A program made the position numbers and the translations under genes. A stretch of 64,000 nucleotides of DNA, from assembly GCF_900636965.1 (NCBI RefSeq), contig NZ_LR134331.1, positions 868,001 to 932,000 on the forward strand, in the 5' to 3' direction. The notes beneath the pieces were generated by a model. It was not told the origin of the DNA. It saw only the letters and a list, made by a program, of their open reading frames with translations, and ran no database searches. Positions 14,665 to 62,492 of this stretch are shown piece by piece. The DNA is from Lacticaseibacillus rhamnosus (GTDB lineage Bacteria; Bacillota; Bacilli; Lactobacillales; Lactobacillaceae). Position 1 is the stretch's first letter. The number at the start of each line of letters is the position of its first letter.

Positions 14665-14761
14665 GATGGATGTCCTTTCTATATAGCCTCATTTTACAAA
14701 ACCACGTTGCCAGAGACAAAGATTTTCGGAATTTTTATATTTTTTATGTTATGCTACTAGA

Positions 14762-14842
14762 GTTGCAATACATTCCCGATGGGGTTCGTTAGCGATTAAC
14801 GAACATGCCTTGTAACCGAAAATCATGAGGGGGAAACAAACG
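14762..14842 (+). promoter_or_regulatory. SMK-box (SAM-III) riboswitch in the metK leader
   Basis: The leader has the SMK architecture known from lactic acid bacteria. GTTGCAA (14762-14768) can pair with TTGTAAC (14810-14816), TTCCCGATGGGG follows the first arm, GTTCGTT/AACGAAC makes the inner hairpin, and the ribosome site (GAGGGGG, about 14827-14833) is available for masking by the upstream pyrimidines. In this class SAM binding sequesters the Shine-Dalgarno region and shuts off metK translation. Assignment is by motif order; no covariance search was possible. Confidence 0.8.
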
Positions 14843-16027
14843 ATGCAAGAACGCCATTTATTTACTTCTGAGTCTGTATCAGAAGGACATCCGGATAAAA
14901 TTGCTGATCAAATCAGTGATGCCATTCTGGATGCAATGCTCGAAAAAGATCCGAATTCTCGAGTTGCGTGTGAAACAACTGTGACGACGGGATTGGTGTT
15001 GGTGGTCGGCGAGATTTCGACCAATGCTTATGTTGACATTCAGTCCGTTGTTCGTGGCACGATTAAGAAAATTGGTTATACAAAAGAGTCTGGGTTTGAT
15101 CCGGATAGTGTCGGTGTTTTGGTTGCACTTGATGAACAGAGCCCGGATATTGCCCAAGGTGTGGATGAAAGTCTTGAGGCCCGCGATTCCGATACCGATC
15201 CGTTAGATAAAATCGGTGCCGGTGATCAAGGGATGATGTTTGGGTTTGCCATTGACGAAACCGACACCTATATGCCATTACCGATTTCGTTGGCTCATGC
15301 CTTGATGCGTCAAACGGATAAATTGCGGCACGCTGGCGAAATCAGTTATCTGCGCCCAGACGCAAAGGCCCAGGTAACAGTAGAGTATGATGATAATGAG
15401 CAGCCTGTTCGGGTTGATACAGTAGTTCTTTCTGTTCAGCATGATCCTGACGTCACACTGGAAGAAATTCGGCGTGACGTAGAGGCTAAAATCATTCGGA
15501 AGATCATTCCAGCTGACATGATGGATGATGACACGAAAATTTATGTTAACCCGACCGGTCGCTTTGTCTTAGGTGGTCCGCAAGCCGATTCCGGATTGAC
15601 TGGTCGTAAGATTATTGTTGATACTTACGGTGGGTTTGCCCGGCATGGCGGTGGGGCCTTTTCCGGTAAGGATGCGACGAAGGTTGACCGCTCTGCTAGT
15701 TATGCAGCGCGTTATATTGCTAAAAATATTGTTGCAGCCGGCTTGGCTAAACGCGTGGAAGTGCAACTGGCTTATGCGATTGGCGTTGCTAAACCGGTGT
15801 CGGTATCTGTTAACACATTTGGCACCAACGTTATTTCTGAACAAGTAATTGAACAGGCTATTCGCGAGAACTTTGATTTGCGACCAGCTGGTATTATTAA
15901 AATGTTAGATCTTAAGCGGCCGATTTATGAACAAACAGCGGCTTATGGTCATTTTGGACGTACAGATGTTGATCTTCCTTGGGAGCACTTAGATAAGGTG
16001 CAAGCACTTCTCAAGTATCGAGATTAG
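14843..16027 (+). CDS. metK: S-adenosylmethionine synthetase
   Basis: Makes SAM from methionine and ATP in the cytoplasm. The ATG at 14843 is chosen because AGGGGG sits 9 bases upstream; the in-frame ATG at 14825 overlaps that site. The 394-residue length is normal. Signature motifs are GHPDKIADQ near residue 17, [12 protein letters not shown] near 120 and the [16 protein letters not shown] loop near 265. The first residues ([18 protein letters not shown]) are classical. Regulated by the SMK riboswitch in its leader and followed by its own strong terminator. Confidence 0.97.
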
Positions 16028-16109: not shown

Positions 16110-16537
16110 ATCGCGCCGGCTCGCGCCTCACCTAACGCGCTCCCCGGCGCAGAACCCTGCGTGTAAGGACCTTAGGCGCAATGGTCAAAGTGTGACCAGC
16201 ACGGCTAAAGACGGCTTGATTTTAAGAAAATAGGCGGGAGGACGGGAAAGTTTTCTGATTTAGGCGATTAAGGGAACTGACATTGCGTTCTATAACACGC
16301 TCCCCGGCGCAGAAGTCTGCGTGTAAGGAGACCTTAAGCGCAATGGCCAAACCCGGGCCATCACGCTTAAGGCCGCTTACACTCCGACTTTTAATCGCGC
16401 CGGCTCGCGCCTCACCATAACGCGCTCCCCAGCCCAGAAACCTGCGTGTAAGGACCTTGGGCGCAATGGTCAAAGTGCGACCATCACGCCCAAGGCCACT
16501 TACACTCCGGTTTCTAACCGGGCTGGCTCGCGCTCAC
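16110..16537 (+). repeat. Palindromic repeat array 1 (three units plus an end fragment)
   Basis: Contains a terminal-module fragment (16110-16130), a degenerate unit from 16131, and two complete units (about 16291-16415 and 16416-16537). Each complete unit is an imperfect palindrome of about 122 bp, reading CATAACGCGCTCCCC, GTGTAAGG, CAATGG, then the matching arm CTTACACTCCG, and ending GGCTCGCGCTCAC. In unit 2 arm blocks GGCGC and CCTTAAGCG pair with GCGCC and CGCTTAAGG. In unit 3 AGCCC and CCTTGGGCG pair with GGGCT and CGCCCAAGG. The array ends about 10 bases before the ribosome site of the MFS gene and fills the gap after metK. Confidence 0.9.
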
Positions 16538-20397: not shown

Positions 20398-21119
20398 TTC
20401 TTTGGTTCTTAGGTCTAATGGTCATTGGCCTTTATCTCAGTTTCATCATGATGCATCGATCGGCAAAGCGGAGCACATTAATTGCCATTTTCAGTATTGG
20501 CTTGATGGGCAGTCTGTTACTGATGGTGCTTAACGATAATGCCCATTTTGGAATGGAAAAACGAACGACTACGGATGAACAAACGATTTATACGGCATCA
20601 CCCAATGCGCAGATGCCAATGTTATTGAAGCAAAATGTTGGCACTGCCGGTAAGCATGTTGTCTACATCTATAAAACCGATCCTAAGAAAAAAGTGGTGC
20701 ATACCAAAGCAGATCTGGCTGTCAGCAATCAGGTTGTGCAGACGACAGGAACAACGGCTTCGATGACAAGTCGCACAACTCGCTGGGAATATCAAAATAG
20801 CTTTTTCAGTGCATTGTTTAACCACCAAGGTGCAGGCCAGTTGGTGGCACAGCATAATCGACTCGTGATGCCTAAAAGTTGGATTGAGCTGACGACGACG
20901 CAAGCCAAACGTCTCGGCACTAAGCTCAAAGCCTTGCAACACCCGAATGCTCAGCAGAAAGCAACCATGGCTGCCGCGGTGAAAGCCAAAGCTGCTGAGT
21001 TGGCTCATGCGAATCCGAAACTGGCGAGCGATCAGGCTGCACTGTTGAAACAAGCACAAGCAACGGTTCAACAAGCAATGATTCAACAGGCGGTTAAAGA
21101 AGTTCAACAACAAAAATAA
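20394..21119 (+). CDS. DUF4811 membrane protein co-transcribed with the MFS exporter
   Basis: A 241-residue protein with two N-terminal membrane helices (about residues 1-20 and 27-48). An extracellular beta-rich part follows, then a C-terminal Ala/Gln/Lys-rich helix (about 165-241). The ATG overlaps the MFS stop (ATGA), meaning translational coupling. Proteins of this type regularly follow LmrB-like exporters in lactobacilli, so an accessory role in the same pump is plausible. Function is not established. The gene is intact although its partner carries a stop codon. Confidence 0.75.
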   Translation: MILWFLGLMVIGLYLSFIMMHRSAKRSTLIAIFSIGLMGSLLLMVLNDNAHFGMEKRTTTDEQTIYTASPNAQMPMLLKQNVGTAGKHVVYIYKTDPKKKVVHTKADLAVSNQVVQTTGTTASMTSRTTRWEYQNSFFSALFNHQGAGQLVAQHNRLVMPKSWIELTTTQAKRLGTKLKALQHPNAQQKATMAAAVKAKAAELAHANPKLASDQAALLKQAQATVQQAMIQQAVKEVQQQK

Positions 21120-22028: not shown

Positions 22029-22248
22029 AATCATCAAACGAACAAAGGAGTAGTAAGTCGGCGCGGGTTTCAGAGAGCAGGCGGTGGTGCGAGCCTGACG
22101 ATGCTAAGACTGAACTGACCTTTGAAGTTGCTGCGGTGAACGGAGTAATCGCAGCCGGCCGGACCGTTACCCCTTTTGAGCGCTGTGAAAGCAGAACTTA
22201 GGTGGTACCGCGGCTGAGCCGTCCTAATGAAGACTAGGGCGGCTTTTT
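22029..22248 (+). promoter_or_regulatory. Leucine T-box riboswitch
   Basis: The leader carries the AGAGAG motif of stem I (about 22072), a specifier-loop context GAACTGACC with CTG (22115-22117) as the likely codon, and the T-box sequence AGGTGGTACCGCGG (22200-22213). The leucine-independent terminator AGCCGTCCTA/TAGGGCGGCT plus T-run lies at 22217-22248. Uncharged tRNA-Leu would pair with the specifier and with TGGT of the T-box and prevent termination. CTG would be read by the tRNA-Leu(CAG) at 29507 in this window. Confidence 0.92.
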
Positions 22249-22275
22249 GTTTGAAAATAAGTGGGAGGTAACAAA

Positions 22276-24687
22276 ATGGCATACGATCATCATGAGATCG
22301 ATAAGAAGTGGCAGCGTTATTGGGCCGAACATAACGAATTCAACACCACAACCGATCCGAAGAAACCGAATTATTATGCATTAGACATGTTCCCATATCC
22401 ATCAGGCCAGGGCTTGCATGTTGGACATCCAGAAGGCTACACCGCGACCGATATTGTGGCGCGGATGAAACGAATGCAAGGATTTAACGTTTTGCATCCG
22501 ATGGGGTGGGATGCATTCGGTTTACCAGCTGAGCAATATGCCTTGAATACCGGTCACAATCCCCGGACTTTTACTAAGCAAAACATTGAAACGTTTAAGC
22601 GTCAAATTAATAGCCTTGGTTTTTCATATGATTGGAACCGGGAAATTAATACGACCGATCCGAATTACTACAAATGGACACAATGGATTTTTGAACAACT
22701 GTATAAACATGGACTAGCGTATGAAGCTGAAGTTCCGGTTAACTGGAGCCCTGATTTGGGAACCGTAGTCGCTAACGAAGAAGTGATTGATGGTAAAACG
22801 GAGCGGGGCGGTTTTCCGGTTGTTCGTAAGCCGATGCGGCAATGGATGCTAAAGATCACAGCGTACGCCGATAAATTACTTGCAGACTTGGATGATTTGG
22901 ATTGGCCTGAATCAATCAAGCAGATGCAACGAAACTGGATCGGCAAGTCAACCGGGGCGCAAATCACGTTTACGGTCACCGATACTCAGGAAAAGTTTGA
23001 CGTTTTCACAACGCGTCCGGACACCCTTTTTGGCGCAACTTATGTCGTCATGGCACCAGAGCACGACTTGGTTGAAAAGATTACGACGCCGGAACAGCAG
23101 GCAGTTGTTGATGCTTATATTGAAGAAGCGGCACATAAGTCCGATCTTGACCGGACGGCGCTCGATAAGGAAAAAACCGGCGTCTGGACAGGTGCTTATG
23201 CGACCAACCCCGTCAATGGCGAGAAGTTGCCGATCTGGATCTCGGATTATGTGCTGGCAACTTATGGTACCGGGGCGATTATGGCGGTGCCGGCCCACGA
23301 TGATCGCGACTATGCTTTTGCTAAGAAATTTGGCATCGAAATCAAACCGGTGATTGAAGGTGGCAATATTGACGAGGCAGCTTATACCGGCGATGGCGTG
23401 CACATTAATTCCGGCTTTCTTGATGGCTTAAACGAACAGGATGCCATTGATCGGATGATCGCATGGCTGGAAGATAAAGGCATTGGCCAGGAAAAAGTTA
23501 ACTATAAGTTGCGTGACTGGGTCTTTTCCCGGCAGCGTTATTGGGGCGAACCCATTCCAGTGATTCACTGGGAAGACGGCGAGACAACCCTGGTACCAGA
23601 AGATGAATTGCCGCTGACTTTGCCGGAAGAAGTTGATATCAAGCCAAGTGGAACCGGTGAGAGCCCGCTCGCCAACCTGACTGACTGGGTCAATGTTGTA
23701 GACAAGAACGGGCGTAAAGGTAAGCGTGAGACGAATACCATGCCGCAATGGGCTGGTTCTTCGTGGTACTTCCTGCGCTTTGTCGATCCACATAACAAAG
23801 AGGCCTTGGCTGATTATGACAAGCTCAAGCAGTGGATGCCAGTGGACCTTTATATCGGCGGGGCCGAACATGCCGTGCTGCATCTGCTGTACGCGCGTTT
23901 TTGGAATCTGTTCCTTTATGATATCGGCGCGATTCCAAACAAGGAACCATTCCAGCGCCTGTTTAACCAAGGCATGATCTTGGGTGATAATCATGAAAAG
24001 ATGAGTAAGTCCAAAGGGAATGTCGTTAACCCCGATGACGTGGTGGACGAATACGGTGCCGATACCTTGCGCCTGTATGAAATGTTCATGGGACCATTGG
24101 ATGCCGGTATCGCTTGGTCCACGGATGGTTTGGCGGGTGCCCGCAAGTTCTTGGATCGAGTATGGAGCGCCTTTATTGATGATGAAGGCAAGCTGCGCGA
24201 TCGTATCACCACCATTAATGACGGTCGTTTGGATAAGGTCTACAACGAAACGGTTAAAAAAGTAACCGAGGACTATGAGGCGTTGCATTTTAACACGGCG
24301 ATTGCCCAAATGATGGTCTTCATCAATTCGGCGCGCAAAGACGATGATTTGCCGCTAGAATATGTTGAAGGCTTTGTCAAAATGCTCGCACCGATCGCAC
24401 CGCACTTGATGGAAGAAATCTGGCAACGGCTGGGACATGATCACAGCTTAACCTATGCGCCGTGGCCAAGTTATGACGAAAGCAAGCTTAAAACCGACAC
24501 CTACGACATGATGGTGCAGGTCAATGGCAAACTTCGTGGTTCCATCACTGCGAGCGTTGATGAGACTGATGACGAGATCAAACAAGCTGCTTTAGCCAAT
24601 GAAAATGTCCAGAAGTATACGACAGGCAAGGATATTAAAAAAATCATTGTCGTACCACGTAAGATTATTAATATCGTTGCTAAGTAA
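22276..24687 (+). CDS. leuS: Leucyl-tRNA synthetase
   Basis: An 804-residue class I synthetase that charges tRNA-Leu. The start ATG at 22276 has GGGAGG 8 bases upstream; an in-frame GTG at 22261 overlaps that site. Class I signatures are clear: [15 protein letters not shown] at about 40-55 (HIGH box as HVGH) and EKMSKSKGN near 573. The CP1 editing domain ([27 protein letters not shown]) and the leucine-specific insertion are in place. The length is typical for Bacillota. Controlled by the T-box leader. No terminator seen downstream; a repeat array follows. Confidence 0.97.
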
Positions 24688-24779: not shown

Positions 24780-25060
24780 GTGAGCGCGAGCCGGCGCGGT
24801 TAGAAAGTAAGCGTGAGCCAGCCCGCTTAGAAGCCGGAGTGTAAGTGGCCTTGGGCGTGATGGCCGGTCTTTGGCCATTGCGACCAAGGTCCTTACACGC
24901 AGGCTTCTGGGCTGGCGAACGCGTTATGGGCGTAAACCAGAATATAAGTGGCCTCAGGCGTGATGGCCGGTCTTTGGCCATTGCGCCTGAGGCCCTTACA
25001 CGCAGATCCCTGCGCCGGGGAGCGCGTTATGGGCGTAAACCGGAGTATAAGTGGCCTTAA
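24780..25060 (-). repeat. Palindromic repeat array 2 (about two units, plus fragments)
   Basis: Minus orientation. The left end is a cut terminal module (24780-24806) directly abutting another terminal module that starts a full unit (24813-24928). A 103-bp internal unit (24929-25031) and a truncated arm to about 25060 follow. In the full unit AGCCC and AGAAGCC pair with GGGCT and GCTTCTAAG. The array fills most of the 519-bp gap between leuS and the flippase gene; no gene is visible there. Confidence 0.88.
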
Positions 25061-25144
25061 CCATTATGTGAAGGCAATGGTTTAGTTTACGTGACTACGA
25101 TTTTCAAAGATTTCTTTTGATTCAACAAAGAAACTCAGTAAAGA

Positions 25145-33457: not shown

Positions 33458-33580
33458 CATAACGCGTTCGCCGGCGCAGGGGTCTGCGTGTAAGGACCTT
33501 AAGCGCAATGGCCAAGAAGCGGGCCATCACGCTTAAGGCCGCTTACACTCCGACTTCTAAGCGCGCCGGCTCACGCTCAC
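33458..33580 (+). repeat. Palindromic repeat 3 (single complete unit)
   Basis: One complete 123-bp unit from CATAACGCGTTCGCC to GGCTCACGCTCAC. Central arms CCTTAAGCG/CGCTTAAGG and CAATGGCC/GGCCATCA pair, as do outer GGCGC/GCGCC. It sits between the ACT and PFL genes of a likely operon, 12 bases after the first stop and ahead of the second ribosome site, so it should be present in the transcript. Confidence 0.92.
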
Positions 33581-48482: not shown

Positions 48483-48598
48483 AAGGGTTGAAAACAGGAA
48501 TAACCGGTGTTAATATGCTTTTAAGCTATTTATTTCGGGCTTTTATCAGGGCTAGCTTTTGGGTAATTGATAAAAGTTTGCGATAAATTACTTCACTA

Positions 48599-48642
48599 AC
48601 GTATCGCTTCGCTGAGTGCGCTCCGAAGCAATGCGTTTTTTT
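48599..48642 (+). terminator. Terminator after rlmA
   Basis: ACGTATCGCTTCG pairs with CGAAGCAATGCGT (one mismatch, one wobble) followed by seven T. Confidence 0.7.
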
Positions 48643-48680: not shown

Positions 48681-48901
48681 TAACGCGCTTCCCGGTGCAG
48701 GGATCTGCGTGTAAGGACCTGAGTCGCAATGACCAAGGGCGGGGGACATCACGCTCGGCGCTAAGTCCGCCTTTACGCCCATAACGCGTTCACCGGCGCA
48801 GGAATCTGCGTGTAAGGACCTGAGTCGCAATGGCCAAGAGCGGGCCATCACGTCTCAGGCCGCTTACACTCCGATTCCTAACCGCGCCGATTCACGCTCA
48901 C
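48681..48901 (+). repeat. Palindromic repeat array 4 (two units)
   Basis: A decayed first unit (48681-48779) and a complete terminal unit (48780-48901). In the second, GGCGC and AGGAATC pair with GCGCC and ATTCCTAAC of the terminal module, and CCTGAG pairs with CTCAGG. In the first, the right arm is scrambled (CGCTCGGCGCTAAGTC). The array ends just before the trmL promoter and, with the rlmA terminator, fills the 485-bp gap. Confidence 0.88.
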
Positions 48902-49961: not shown

Positions 49962-49963
49962 GC

Positions 49964-50291
49964 TGAGCGCGAGCCGGAGCGGTTAGAAACCGGAGTGTAA
50001 GCGGCCTCAGACGTGATGGCCCGGGCTTGGCCATTGCGGCTGAGGTCCTTACACGCAGGTTTCTGCGCCGGCGAACGCGTTATGGGCGTAAACCAGAACA
50101 TAAGCAGTCTCAGCCGTGATGGCCAGGTTTTGGCCATTACGCCCAAGGTCCTTACACGCAGGCTACTGGGCTGGCGAACGCGTTATGGGCGTAAACCAGA
50201 ACATAAGCGGCCCCAGCCGTAATGGCCCAGGCTTTGGCCATTGCGCCCAAGGTCCTTACGCTCTGACTTCTGCGCCGGAAAGCGCGTTATG
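49964..50291 (-). repeat. Palindromic repeat array 5 (three units, 122 + 103 + 104 bp)
   Basis: Minus orientation, so the terminal module (TGAGCGCGAGCCGG) is at the left, right after the DUF1149 terminator. Unit borders (GTTATG) fall at 50084, 50187 and 50291. In the terminal unit AGAAACC pairs with GGTTTCT; the internal units end TTATGTTCTGGTTTACGCC. It fills most of the 525-bp gap before ftsK and creates a spurious open frame running into ftsK. Confidence 0.92.
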
Positions 50292-59155: not shown

Positions 59156-60208
59156 ATGGCAGAAACCGAACGACAGGAAGCATTGGCAACGGCGTTAAAG
59201 AAGATTGAGAAGAATTTTGGCAAAGGGGCCATTATGCGGATGGGGGACAAAGTGGAGACACGCGTTTCTGCTGTTTCCAGCGGATCACTTGCAATTGATG
59301 ATGCACTTGGTGTTGGTGGGCTGCCACGTGGACGAATTGTTGAAATCTATGGTCCGGAAAGTTCCGGAAAAACGACTGTGGCCTTGCATGCAGTTGCCAT
59401 GGTTCAGCAACACGGTGGCACGGCCGCTTATATTGATGCCGAAAATGCCATGGATCCCAAATATGCAGCGGCACTTGGCGTCAATATTGATGAGCTGTTG
59501 CTTTCACAGCCGGATACCGGTGAACAAGGATTGGAAATTGCCGATGAGCTGGTTGCATCGGGAGCCATTGATATTTTAGTGGTTGATTCAGTGGCAGCTC
59601 TGGTACCGCGCGCAGAAATTGAAGGGGACATGGGTGATGCACACGTTGGGTTACAGGCACGGCTAATGTCACAGGCCTTACGAAAGTTGTCTGGGGCGAT
59701 CAATAAAACCAAAACAATTGCCTTGTTCATCAACCAGATCCGGGAAAAAGTCGGTATTGTATTCGGCAATCCTGAAATTACGCCGGGCGGTCGGGCGCTG
59801 AAGTTTTATGCCACTGTGCGTATGGAAGTGCGCCGTTCTGAGCAGATCAAAAACGGTGCCGATATTATTGGCAATCGCACCAAAATCAAAGTGGTTAAAA
59901 ATAAAGTTGCACCGCCGTTTAAGACTGCCATTGTTGATATTATGTATGGTCAAGGCATTTCCCAAAGCGGTGAACTTGTCGACATGGCGGTTGAAAAAGA
60001 CATCATTGAAAAGGCGGGTTCGTGGTATGCCTACCAAGGCGAGCGCATTGGTCAAGGACGTGAACACGCTAAAAGCTATCTTGAAACGCATGAGGAGCTG
60101 CGCCGAACCATTGAAAAACAAGTCCGGCTTGCTTATGGAATGTCGCCGGATCACGTTATCGATCAAGCGGACACGGAGACAGATACTACCACATCTGCTG
60201 CATCATGA
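59156..60208 (+). CDS. recA: Recombinase A
   Basis: A 350-residue protein with Walker [10 protein letters not shown] near residue 65, Walker [13 protein letters not shown] near 138, the signature [27 protein letters not shown] and the C-terminal acidic tail. It mediates homologous recombination, SOS induction and transformation. RBS AGGAGGCGG. No clear DinR/LexA box was found just upstream; expression may be shared with cinA. A four-unit palindromic array follows directly. Confidence 0.97.
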
Positions 60209-60271: not shown

Positions 60272-60702
60272 CATAACGCGCTCGTAGTCGCGGCAATCGA
60301 AGTGTAAGGACCTTGATCGCAATGACCAAAGCCCGGCCATCACGGCTGAGGCCACTTATGTTCTGGCTTACGCCCATAACGCGCTCGCCGGCGCAGAAGT
60401 CTGCGTGTAAGGACCTCAGGCGCAATGGCCAAAGTGCAGCCATTACGCCTGAGGCCGCTTATGTTCTGGCTTACGCCCATAACGCGCTCGCCAGCCCAGA
60501 AACCTGCACATAAGGACCTTGGTCGCAATGACCAAAGACCGGTCATCACGCCCAAGGCCACTTATGTTCTGGCTTACGCCCATAACGCGCTCCCCGGCGC
60601 AGAAGTCTGCGTGTAAGGACCTCAGTCGCAATGGCCAAAGTGCGGCCATTACGCCTGAGGCCACTTACACTCCGACTTCTAAGCGCGCCGGTTCGCGCTC
60701 AC
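60272..60702 (+). repeat. Palindromic repeat array 6 (four units, exact 103-bp period)
   Basis: Units start with CATAAC at 60272, 60375, 60478 and 60581: three steps of exactly 103 bp, then a 122-bp terminal unit ending CGCGCTCAC at 60702. Units alternate variants: u2 GGCGC/AGAAGTC, u3 AGCCC/AGAAACC, u4 GGCGC/AGAAGTC. Internal units end TTATGTTCTGGCTTACGCC; only u4 has the terminal module, whose ACTTCTAAGCGCGCC pairs with its own left arm. Lies between recA and rny and fills most of the 620-bp gap; no gene is visible in it. Confidence 0.95.
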
Positions 60703-60717
60703 TAAATTTGCCTCCAG

Positions 60718-60746
60718 TTGACACCTTGCAGGCCAGCACGTAAACT
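60718..60746 (+). promoter_or_regulatory. rny promoter
   Basis: TTGACA, 17-bp spacer, TAAACT, just downstream of repeat array 6. Confidence 0.7.
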
Positions 60747-60829: not shown

Positions 60830-62404
60830 ATGATGAGTTCAGTAACACTGGTCTCAATAACCCTCGCAGCAGTCATCGCTTTAGCGGTCGGTTTATTGAT
60901 CGGATTTGCACTTCAAAAGAAGCTCCACCAGAACAGTTTGGATCGAGCGACGCAGACAGCAGAAGGTATCATTGAGGCCGCTAAAAAAGAAGCAGCGACT
61001 TTAAAAAAAGAGAAACTGCTAGAAGCAAAAGATGAGAATCATCGCTATCGAACCCAACTTGAAGACGAATTGAAAGATCGGCGGGCGGAAGTCCAGAAGT
61101 CAGAACATCGACTGAACCAGCGAGAAGATACTCTTGATCGGCGTGATGACACGCTTGATCGTAAAGAGCAGAGTCTTGCTGACCGGGAAGCAAATTTGAA
61201 CAAGCGGCAGCAACAGTTAGATGAACGTGAACAAGCTATCTCTTCTGAAATCAGCAAACAACAGACAGAACTCGAACGAATTGCCGAGCTAAGCCATGAG
61301 CAGGCTCGGACTCAGATCCTTGACCAGACACAATCAGAATTGACGCATGAACGCGCCGTGATGATTAAAGAAAGCGAAGATGAAGCAAAGGAGGCCGCAG
61401 ATAAGAAAGCCAAGGTACTGATTGCGGATGCAATTCAGCGCAGTGCTTCAGATATCGTTGCCGAGACAACGGTTACGGTTGTTAATTTACCAAATGACGA
61501 CATGAAAGGCCGAATTATCGGTCGTGAAGGTCGAAATATCCGGACACTTGAGACTTTGACGGGGATTGACTTAATTATTGACGATACCCCGCAAGCCGTT
61601 GTTTTGAGCGGATTTGATCCGATTCGACGGGAAATCGCGCGAATCGCGTTGGAGAAGCTCATTCAAGATGGCCGAATTCATCCGGCCCGCATTGAAGAAA
61701 TGGTTGATAAGGCACGCAAAGAGATGGATGACCGCATTCGTGAAATCGGCGAACAAGCTATTTTTGATGTGGGTATTCATAACATGCACCCTGACTTGAT
61801 TAAGATTTTGGGTCGCTTGCATTTTCGTACGAGTTACGGTCAGAATGTTCTGGATCATTCGATTCAGGTTGCAAAGCTGGCCGGTGTGATGGCTGCTGAA
61901 TTAGGAGAAGATGTTACCTTAGCAAAACGCGCGGGGTTATTACATGATATTGGTAAGGCGCTCGATCATGAAGTCGATGGATCCCACGTTGAAATTGGGG
62001 TCGAGCTAGCAACAAAGTACAAAGAACCAAAGACGGTGATTAATGCCATTGCGTCCCATCATGGTGACGTTGAACCAACTAGTGTCATTTCGGTACTAGT
62101 CGCCGCCGCTGATGCTATTTCCGCCGCTCGTCCAGGCGCGCGGTCGGAATCACTTGAAAATTACCTGCATCGCTTAGAGAAATTGGAGGCTATTGCCAAC
62201 AGTCATGCTGGCGTTGACCATAGTTTCGCGATCCAGGCCGGTCGTGAAGTACGGGTGATCGTTCAGCCAGAAAAACTTTCTGATGATCAGAGTGTCATTT
62301 TGGCTCGCGACATTCGCAATGAAATTGAAAAAGAATTAGAGTATCCGGGTCACATCAAGGTTACAGTCATTCGAGAAACCCGAACCGTTGAATATGCTAA
62401 ATAA
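60830..62404 (+). CDS. rny: Ribonuclease Y
   Basis: A 524-residue membrane-anchored endoribonuclease: N-terminal helix (about 5-28), a long coiled coil (about 40-205) rich in Glu/Lys/Arg, a KH domain (about 210-275, [19 protein letters not shown]), then the HD domain with [10 protein letters not shown] near 372 and ASHHGDVEP. It starts mRNA decay in Bacillota. Start ATG at 60830 after GGAGGTG; ATG at 60833 is equally possible. Confidence 0.96.
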
Positions 62405-62446
62405 GTTTGCAGTTAGGCCTTATTAAAGGGCACTATATGTAAACCA

Positions 62447-62487
62447 AAAAGATCCGCAAGCGGTAATTGAGCTTGCGGATCTTTTTG
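62447..62487. terminator. Bidirectional terminator
   Basis: AAAGATCCGCAAGC pairs with GCTTGCGGATCTTT; serves rny and the converging yigZ-type gene. Confidence 0.92.
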
Positions 62488-62492
62488 CGTTT

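Follow-up and report, generated by a model that had tools for sequence, protein, structure and literature searches.

The array at positions 60272–60702 of the window, that is of the whole stretch of 64,000 nt analysed here, on balance probably represents a locus of a repeat family of the Lactobacillus casei group, made up of small non-autonomous hairpin elements which would have spread as complete hairpins and grown into arrays by duplication in place. Single units and arrays occupy sites at which relatives lack a unit, and are present on plasmids as well; in arrays of complete units, a short sequence similar to the local 5' flank recurs between the units; and the internal units of 103 bp have lost most of their 3' arm, their halves being mostly of different types, with a complete and coherent unit at the 3' end.

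RESULTS

The array and the other repeat loci of the window

The array consists of three 103-bp units and one longer unit. The original prediction had given it a 103-bp period with unit starts (CATAACGCGCTC) at 60272, 60375, 60478 and 60581, and both a sequence search and Tandem Repeats Finder bore this out: the latter reported a period of 103 for 60302–60667, as well as for 49998–50291 and 24842–25057. The 103–104-bp step said to be shared with other arrays was thus recovered in these two, but it is not general, exact 103-bp units defining one class of arrays only. The three truncated internal units (60272–60580, + strand) are each made of a 5' arm, a core hairpin and the shared linker CTTATGTTCTGGCTTACGCC. 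The complete terminal unit (60581–60702, + strand; a row of the 76-unit alignment A1, see below) has the 5' arm, the core and a 3' arm which, as located by motif search and alignment, spans 60664–60702 (+ strand) and is the 'terminal module' of the original prediction. The terminal sequence, with up to three mismatches, was found at 60664 and at six other sites of the window (0.02 expected by chance) and the internal linker at seven sites (0.01 expected). The RNA fold z-score of the array was -6.7.

The flanking ORFs (59156–60208 and 60830–62404) are those of genes that we take to be recA and, probably, rny. A promoter-like TTGACA-17-TAAACT stretch of the downstream gene, noticed by eye and checked for position, lies 3' of the array (60718–60746, + strand); similar sequence is also present in relatives. 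After the probable rny gene, a palindromic stretch (62441–62492) matches its own other strand and recurs in two congeners (G005 and G006); it is perhaps a terminator.

Five other loci were delimited. Locus 1 (16131–16537, + strand) begins with a truncated fragment (16134–16212), followed by two complete units (16291–16413 and 16416–16537) which both have the 3' arm; Tandem Repeats Finder gave a period of 123 for 16291–16537. Locus 2 (24780–25068, - strand) starts with a remnant at its 5' side, followed by a 103-bp unit, a complete unit and, 3' of the latter, the remnant of another 3' arm (24780–24807), as if one unit lay inside another. Locus 3 (33458–33580, + strand) is a single complete unit, locus 4 (48681–48901, + strand) one truncated and one complete unit, and locus 5 (49963–50291, - strand) two units of 103/104 bp and one complete unit.

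The complete unit is a covarying imperfect palindrome

The terminal module had been regarded as an end piece foreign to the internal units. It is instead one half of the unit itself: the complete unit is an imperfect palindrome of about 120 bp in which the module, as 3' arm, matches that unit's own 5' arm (e.g. CAGCCC with GGGCTG, and CGGCGC with GCGCCG). A structure of 43 pairs was scored in 76 complete units from this genome and its relatives (alignment A1, reduced from 85 units by dropping L117 and near-identical units). In it 94.8% of the cells were paired, versus at most 41.9% when the 3' partners were slid; change on both sides was seen in 24 of the 43 pairs, with 316 double-changed cells observed versus 101 after shuffling. 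Among 179 units picked by a profile search, 94.7% of the cells were paired and 30 of the 43 pairs changed on both sides. RNAalifold independently predicted 35 pairs, all within the same hairpin.

The ends of the unit, AACGCG and CGCTC, are conserved, in part by construction for alignment A1, whose rows were picked with a pattern fixing AACGCG and a TC..GCT end. In the profile-picked set, columns 4–6 pair with columns 119–121 in at least 176 of the 179 units, and column 7 pairs with column 118 in most. The imperfections are kept as well: seven column pairs remain mismatched in the 179 units (T.C in 178, C.T in 171, T.C in 173, C.T in 169, A.C in 169, C.A in 162 and A.C in 151), and an AA bulge is retained in 163. 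Coupling across the stem was high in every helix tested (excess from 0.51 to 0.67) and exceeded coupling along the strand, which was 0.03 between the outer helix and the core, 0.03 for outer–lower, 0.18 for outer–inner and 0.21 for inner–lower; because of the latter two values, neighbouring helices are not fully independent.

In 6 of the 179 complete units, a fully complementary triplet stands in place of the conserved TGC/TCC loop, in both directions, and no one-step intermediate of such a correction was present among the 179. In one unit (L177), the 3' arm contains a run of 21 nt that is exactly reverse-complementary to the 5' arm. Template switching is described, in the accessible text of PMC8794818, as leaving changes of this kind.

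A diverged tandem family (L117, contig C16 of G023) has the same ends (CATAACGCGCTC ... GGCTCACGCT) and a different core; there the ends would seem to have outlived the middle.

Copy number and distribution

The 431-bp array used as query gave 48 matches in this genome, and the stretches of the genome that were read contain 200 non-overlapping units or fragments. A covariance model run on nine genomes found at least 150 matches in each of five carriers (this genome, G000, and G005, G006, G017 and G028), 2 in G025 and 7 to 20 weaker ones in G003, G011 and G023; beyond the 150, some matches may be to the second strand of palindromes already counted. A BLAST search gave a match in 7 of 30 genomes of the genus, five of them with 26 to 38. 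The linker of the 103-bp class had 76 hits here and a single one in each of G005 and G028, and the remaining 27 congeners had none; this class thus appears nearly confined to the present lineage. Copies were present in 14 of 72,556 plasmid records, and no match was obtained in 50,697 phage records. The family is a large one of hairpin-forming, apparently mobile repeats belonging to the L. casei group. Placement in this group, with L. rhamnosus as the probable species here, is deduced from genome size, G+C and how the five carriers are related; a RecA scan of named genomes gave 80 loci and no near relative. No description of it was found in the open-access literature on lactobacillus repeats, including the accessible parts of PMC3792948 and PMC1590033, a body of text that mostly excludes subscription papers; the survey of PMC2267715, in its accessible part, covers L. 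johnsonii as sole lactobacillus and does not describe the family.

Array architecture and polarity

Architecture was compared over 76 arrays, units less than 60 bp apart being joined into one array. These came from 26 of the 30 BLAST loci, from 40 stretches with strong hits to the model and from the window; dropping duplicates removed L001 and L008 from the 30 BLAST loci, then L012 and L023, the latter step bringing 79 arrays down to 76. The original prediction placed one terminal module at the end of every array and none in the internal units. Locus 1 already departs from this, with the module in both units of 16291–16537 (at 16376 and 16499), and in 34 of the 69 multi-unit arrays of this genome every unit keeps its 3' arm, truncated units or remnants being present in the other 35. 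Terminal modules therefore do occur inside arrays, an observation that the prediction had itself named as counting against it. A weaker form of the claim holds: the 3' side closes with a complete unit in 75 of the 76 arrays, in a sample where arrays devoid of a complete unit are under-represented, the 40 stretches (L207–L246) being strong hits to the complete unit.

The linkers distinguish two classes. In the 35 arrays without 5'-intact truncated units (L207, whose first remnant has no 3' arm, is counted among them), the linker is locus-specific, with 8.76 of 10 positions alike within loci versus 4.61 between loci, and it resembles the array's own 5' flank (6.13 versus 4.46, 0 of 5000 permutations, 25 loci). 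Where truncated units are present (34 arrays), all loci share one linker type (8.45 within versus 8.44 between), and it matches the array's own flank weakly (5.5 versus 5.27, 277 of 5000 permutations). The proposed pairing of TTATG in one unit with CATAA in the next can be drawn on paper, but it has no support from covariation because the linker is nearly identical in all loci of the 103-bp class.

Complete and truncated units also differ in their cores. The three variable core pairs were all Watson-Crick in 97 of 113 complete units versus 16 of 45 truncated ones (random-partner baselines of 0.244 and 0.175, respectively). Core coupling in truncated units was 0.33, versus 0.29 after shuffling; in complete units it was 0.81, or 0.86 when subsampled to 45. 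The halves of a truncated unit look like intact alleles of different types, and such units are likely to be hybrids. Exchange between direct neighbours found no support as the source of the mismatched 103-bp units, there being no excess of the matching half in the adjacent unit (6 of 43 in the next and 4 of 19 in the previous one, 0.175 at random); in the next-but-one unit it was found in 8 of 25 cases (same random value). Because of this negative result, we hold the hairpin-repeat explanation less firmly.

The polarity claimed for the array is real and runs 5' to 3', the first units being more decayed. In arrays of complete units, the core was coherent in 12 of 21 first, 13 of 14 middle and 35 of 36 last units (first versus last, Fisher p = 2.5e-4); in arrays with truncated units, the last unit was coherent in 28 of 33. 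In 20 arrays outside the alignment, the paired fraction was 0.89 in the first and 0.966 in the last unit (higher in 13, equal in 3, p = 0.003).

The same sites in other species and on plasmids

Unit number at orthologous sites was compared in four congeners and on plasmids of L. paracasei, L. plantarum and Pediococcus. Arrays differ in unit number at such sites, both between species and between plasmids of one species. At loci 3, 4 and 5 no unit was detected in the four congeners, apart from a short end-like remnant seen by eye at locus 5 in G017; the three remaining loci of the window vary among congeners in how many units they have, in orientation or in presence. At locus 1, G005 and G028 have a left flank identical at 379 of 398 positions and a nearly identical apex, and the stem base is changed on both arms, with seven double-changed pairs, in a comparison where a misaligned stretch near the tip inflates the count of pairs changed on one side only. 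No such stem swap was seen at locus 2 between the same two genomes (0 double-changed pairs). In G006 (L188, contig C5), about 2.7 kb of other sequence stands at locus 1 in place of the repeat array.

For plasmids, the records read were 6 of 8 for the DUF956-IID site, 5 of 13 for the PTS site and 2 of 5 for the L172 site, the Pediococcus plasmids L183 and L184 being left out of the analysis. The five records of the PTS site comprise three with a unit, one L. plantarum stub and one Pediococcus record without the second flank of the site. There, the flanks of two L. paracasei plasmids are 99.5% and 99.0% identical, and the elements between them about 76%, in a comparison where the L175 element was delimited about 5 nt short; a plasmid of Pediococcus inopinatus carries the same element as one of the two, and the L. 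plantarum plasmid retains the 5' end only. A second plasmid site showed a stub in four of the records read, a single unit in a fifth and a stub together with two units in a sixth. L182 is without most of the unit found in L172, a loss between short direct repeats.

A search for target-site duplications gave no consistent signal (3.42 for own flanks versus 3.28 for permuted ones, 722 of 5000, 53 arrays), with one clean site, in G028, where AAAAT stands on both sides. Transposition is for that reason deduced from the site differences and the dispersal of the copies. No mobilising enzyme was found with PF01797 (Y1), the sole transposase family searched.

DISCUSSION

How the arrays may have formed

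In the explanation that we favour, the spreading unit would be the complete hairpin, recognised as a folded single strand by a putative enzyme for which the conserved mismatches could serve as marks. Arrays would lengthen as units duplicate in place and then diverge or are replaced; the 103-bp units would arise by exchange between copies together with a loss inside the 3' arm, and the matching of the arms would be restored, at least partly, by hairpin-templated (template-switch) copying. Two processes may make the last unit special: where the right breakpoint of a tandem duplication falls within the 3' arm, only the last copy would keep that arm, and fresher units may lie at the 3' end beside an A/T tract. 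The freshness of the 3' end exceeds what breakpoint duplication gives, which suggests addition or renewal there. Units would multiply in place and be degraded by exchange and slippage, the complete palindrome being the coherent unit. Recent tandem duplication alone would not lead one to expect what is seen, namely that units are only slightly, though significantly, more alike at variable sites within an array (0.64) than between arrays (0.59; 0 of 1000 permutations).

A more specific version, which we put forward tentatively and regard as doubtful, is that copies exchange segments of the stem as paired modules while the DNA is folded. Each helix lying between two conserved mismatch loops would then be tied to its partner arm much more closely than to its neighbours along the strand; the mismatches would again be marks for a putative hairpin enzyme, and coherent units would be added at the 3' side as the 5' end decays.

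We think it unlikely that gene conversion of whole units between dispersed copies, with no hairpin DNA involved, accounts for both the swapped units and the matched arms. It would explain differences between units at fixed sites whose linkers and flanks are unchanged, but the change of seven pairs on both arms around a shared apex, at locus 1 of G005 and G028, would require two matched tracts, and perfectly complementary loops arise without one-step intermediates.

Gene context and a possible role in RNA

Paired changes in a stem are usually taken as evidence of a functional RNA, and a role as structured RNA at the transcript level has been proposed for the ERIC and NEMIS repeats. The repeat could also be a structured mRNA element, its hairpin being kept by compensatory selection and acting on the 3' gene by controlling its translation or stability, a reading that has about the same rather low probability as gene conversion. 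The strong fold and the covariation are what such an element would display. Gene context, scored by simple ORF calling for 75 of the 76 arrays, goes in the same direction: the 3'-side gene is co-directional in 54 of 75 (p = 1.8e-4), and 25 of 76 arrays are followed within 40 nt on the 3' side by an SD-like motif, versus 2 of 76 when the antisense strand was checked 5' of the array. However, 21 of the 75 arrays face the opposite way, related species have filled or unfilled sites, and at recA-rny the array lies upstream of the promoter-like sequence of rny. The half-changed pairs also speak against it, since they are free of G.U bias on the element strand (38 G.U versus 74 A.C in the first set, 112 versus 166 in the larger one) and thus give no sign of RNA wobble there; the lean towards A.C could mean that a functional RNA is the opposite strand. 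At the six repeat loci, finally, no Rfam 15 family matched above the gathering score.

In 32 of the 76 arrays a tract of five A or five T is found no more than 14 nt from the 3' end, and in 3 of the 76 at this distance from the 5' end, a bias which may stem from a target preference or from selection for a position sparing the SD.

The model of the original prediction, a terminator-defined array growing by insertion of 103-bp internal units through slippage or rolling amplification, now appears improbable. The polarity and the differences in unit number on which it drew are real, and truncated units are present in 34 of the 76 arrays. Growth by adding internal units is nevertheless a poor fit: these units are diverse, with core halves mostly unmatched, and so do not look like recent copies; the coherent unit stands at the 3' end; the terminal module is found in every unit of about half of the multi-unit arrays (34 of 69); and the 103-bp linker, with 76 matches here, has one match each in 2 of 29 congeners.

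Relation to known repeats

We read the element as working like BOX, REPIN or MITE repeats while fitting none of their definitions in full. MITEs are short, have ends that pair with each other and exist in many copies; RUP, ERIC and NEMIS are among the named repeats. The present family is like them in being short, in its pairing ends (the column pairs 4–6 with 119–121 amounting to terminal inverted repeats), in its many dispersed copies (200 units or fragments here and the model matches of the five carriers) and in the relatives' sites without units. It differs in that no parental insertion sequence was found, one transposase family having been searched, and in having no consistent target-site duplication.

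The likeness to the BOX elements of Streptococcus pneumoniae, as far as the accessible text of PMC3049150 describes them, is broad: both are small dispersed repeats with more than 100 copies per genome, modular, with one module in tandem, fold into hairpins and are of uncertain mobilising enzyme, strain-variable length being described for BOX. A BOX, however, is boxA-boxB(n)-boxC, made of distinct modules of which only B is repeated, whereas here the whole palindrome repeats, units with both arms recurring in 34 of 69 arrays, and the 'end' is its 3' arm. The same source, in the part seen, reports target-site duplications for BOX and an over-representation between convergent genes; here there is no consistent duplication, and a gene of the same direction follows 54 of 75 arrays. 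BOX is set apart here by its description.

In the accessible portions of PMC3116915, PMC8266576 and PMC3733652, REP and REPIN sequences are dispersed intergenic hairpins with a conserved mismatch or bulge in a variable stem, and their clusters are reiterated in tandem together with segments of flanking DNA. The present family shares this, its seven conserved mismatches being found in 151 to 178 of 179 units; it differs in its size (about 120 bp and 43 pairs, against REP stems tabulated at 5–13 bp in the available part of PMC3733652) and in forming one long hairpin, not two inverted REPs. Neither a GTAG nor a CGTC tag is present at the conserved ends of the aligned unit (AACGCG and CGCTC). PF01797 (Y1/RAYT) had no match in this genome, G005 or G017, seven in G006 and one in G028, and was found in 13 of 30 genomes of the genus, mostly non-carriers. 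Mobilisation by such an enzyme in this genome was rejected for want of a PF01797 match. That the family is of a REP/REPIN-like type and mobilised by a Y1 (RAYT) transposase is very improbable, given a domain absent from three of the five carriers and mostly found in non-carriers, an aligned unit with no conserved GTAG and a stem far longer than those of REPs, even though two carriers (G006 and G028) have Y1 genes and the mismatches conserved in a covarying hairpin recall E. coli REP, where correction of the bulge abolishes or severely lowers TnpA-REP activity according to the text available from PMC8266576.

The maintenance of hairpins by template switching, as presented in the accessible text of PMC8794818, is similar in its multi-base compensatory changes and in the matching of a stem in one step; there it is described for RNA genes, whereas the present case is a dispersed DNA repeat in which mismatches are nevertheless kept.

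The interest of the family lies in its many copies, in which the two arms of a DNA hairpin are seen to change in concert. Its hundreds of copies combine strong covariation, without the G.U bias of an RNA on that strand, with perfect loop corrections free of intermediates, and they thereby offer a natural test bed for the extent to which hairpin-templated DNA copying can imitate RNA selection. The family would also point to a putative mobility enzyme, and it may provide a marker, variable in length and type, for lactobacilli and their plasmids.

Three Rfam families scored above the cut-off elsewhere in the window: a SAM-III (SMK box) riboswitch at 14758–14845, overlapping the start of the ORF 14825–16027; a T-box leader at 22036–22229, upstream of the ORF 22261–24687; and a 23S-methyl RNA motif at 48530–48642, directly upstream of repeat locus 4. 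A 15-bp tandem repeat (2.2 copies) lies at 21056–21088.
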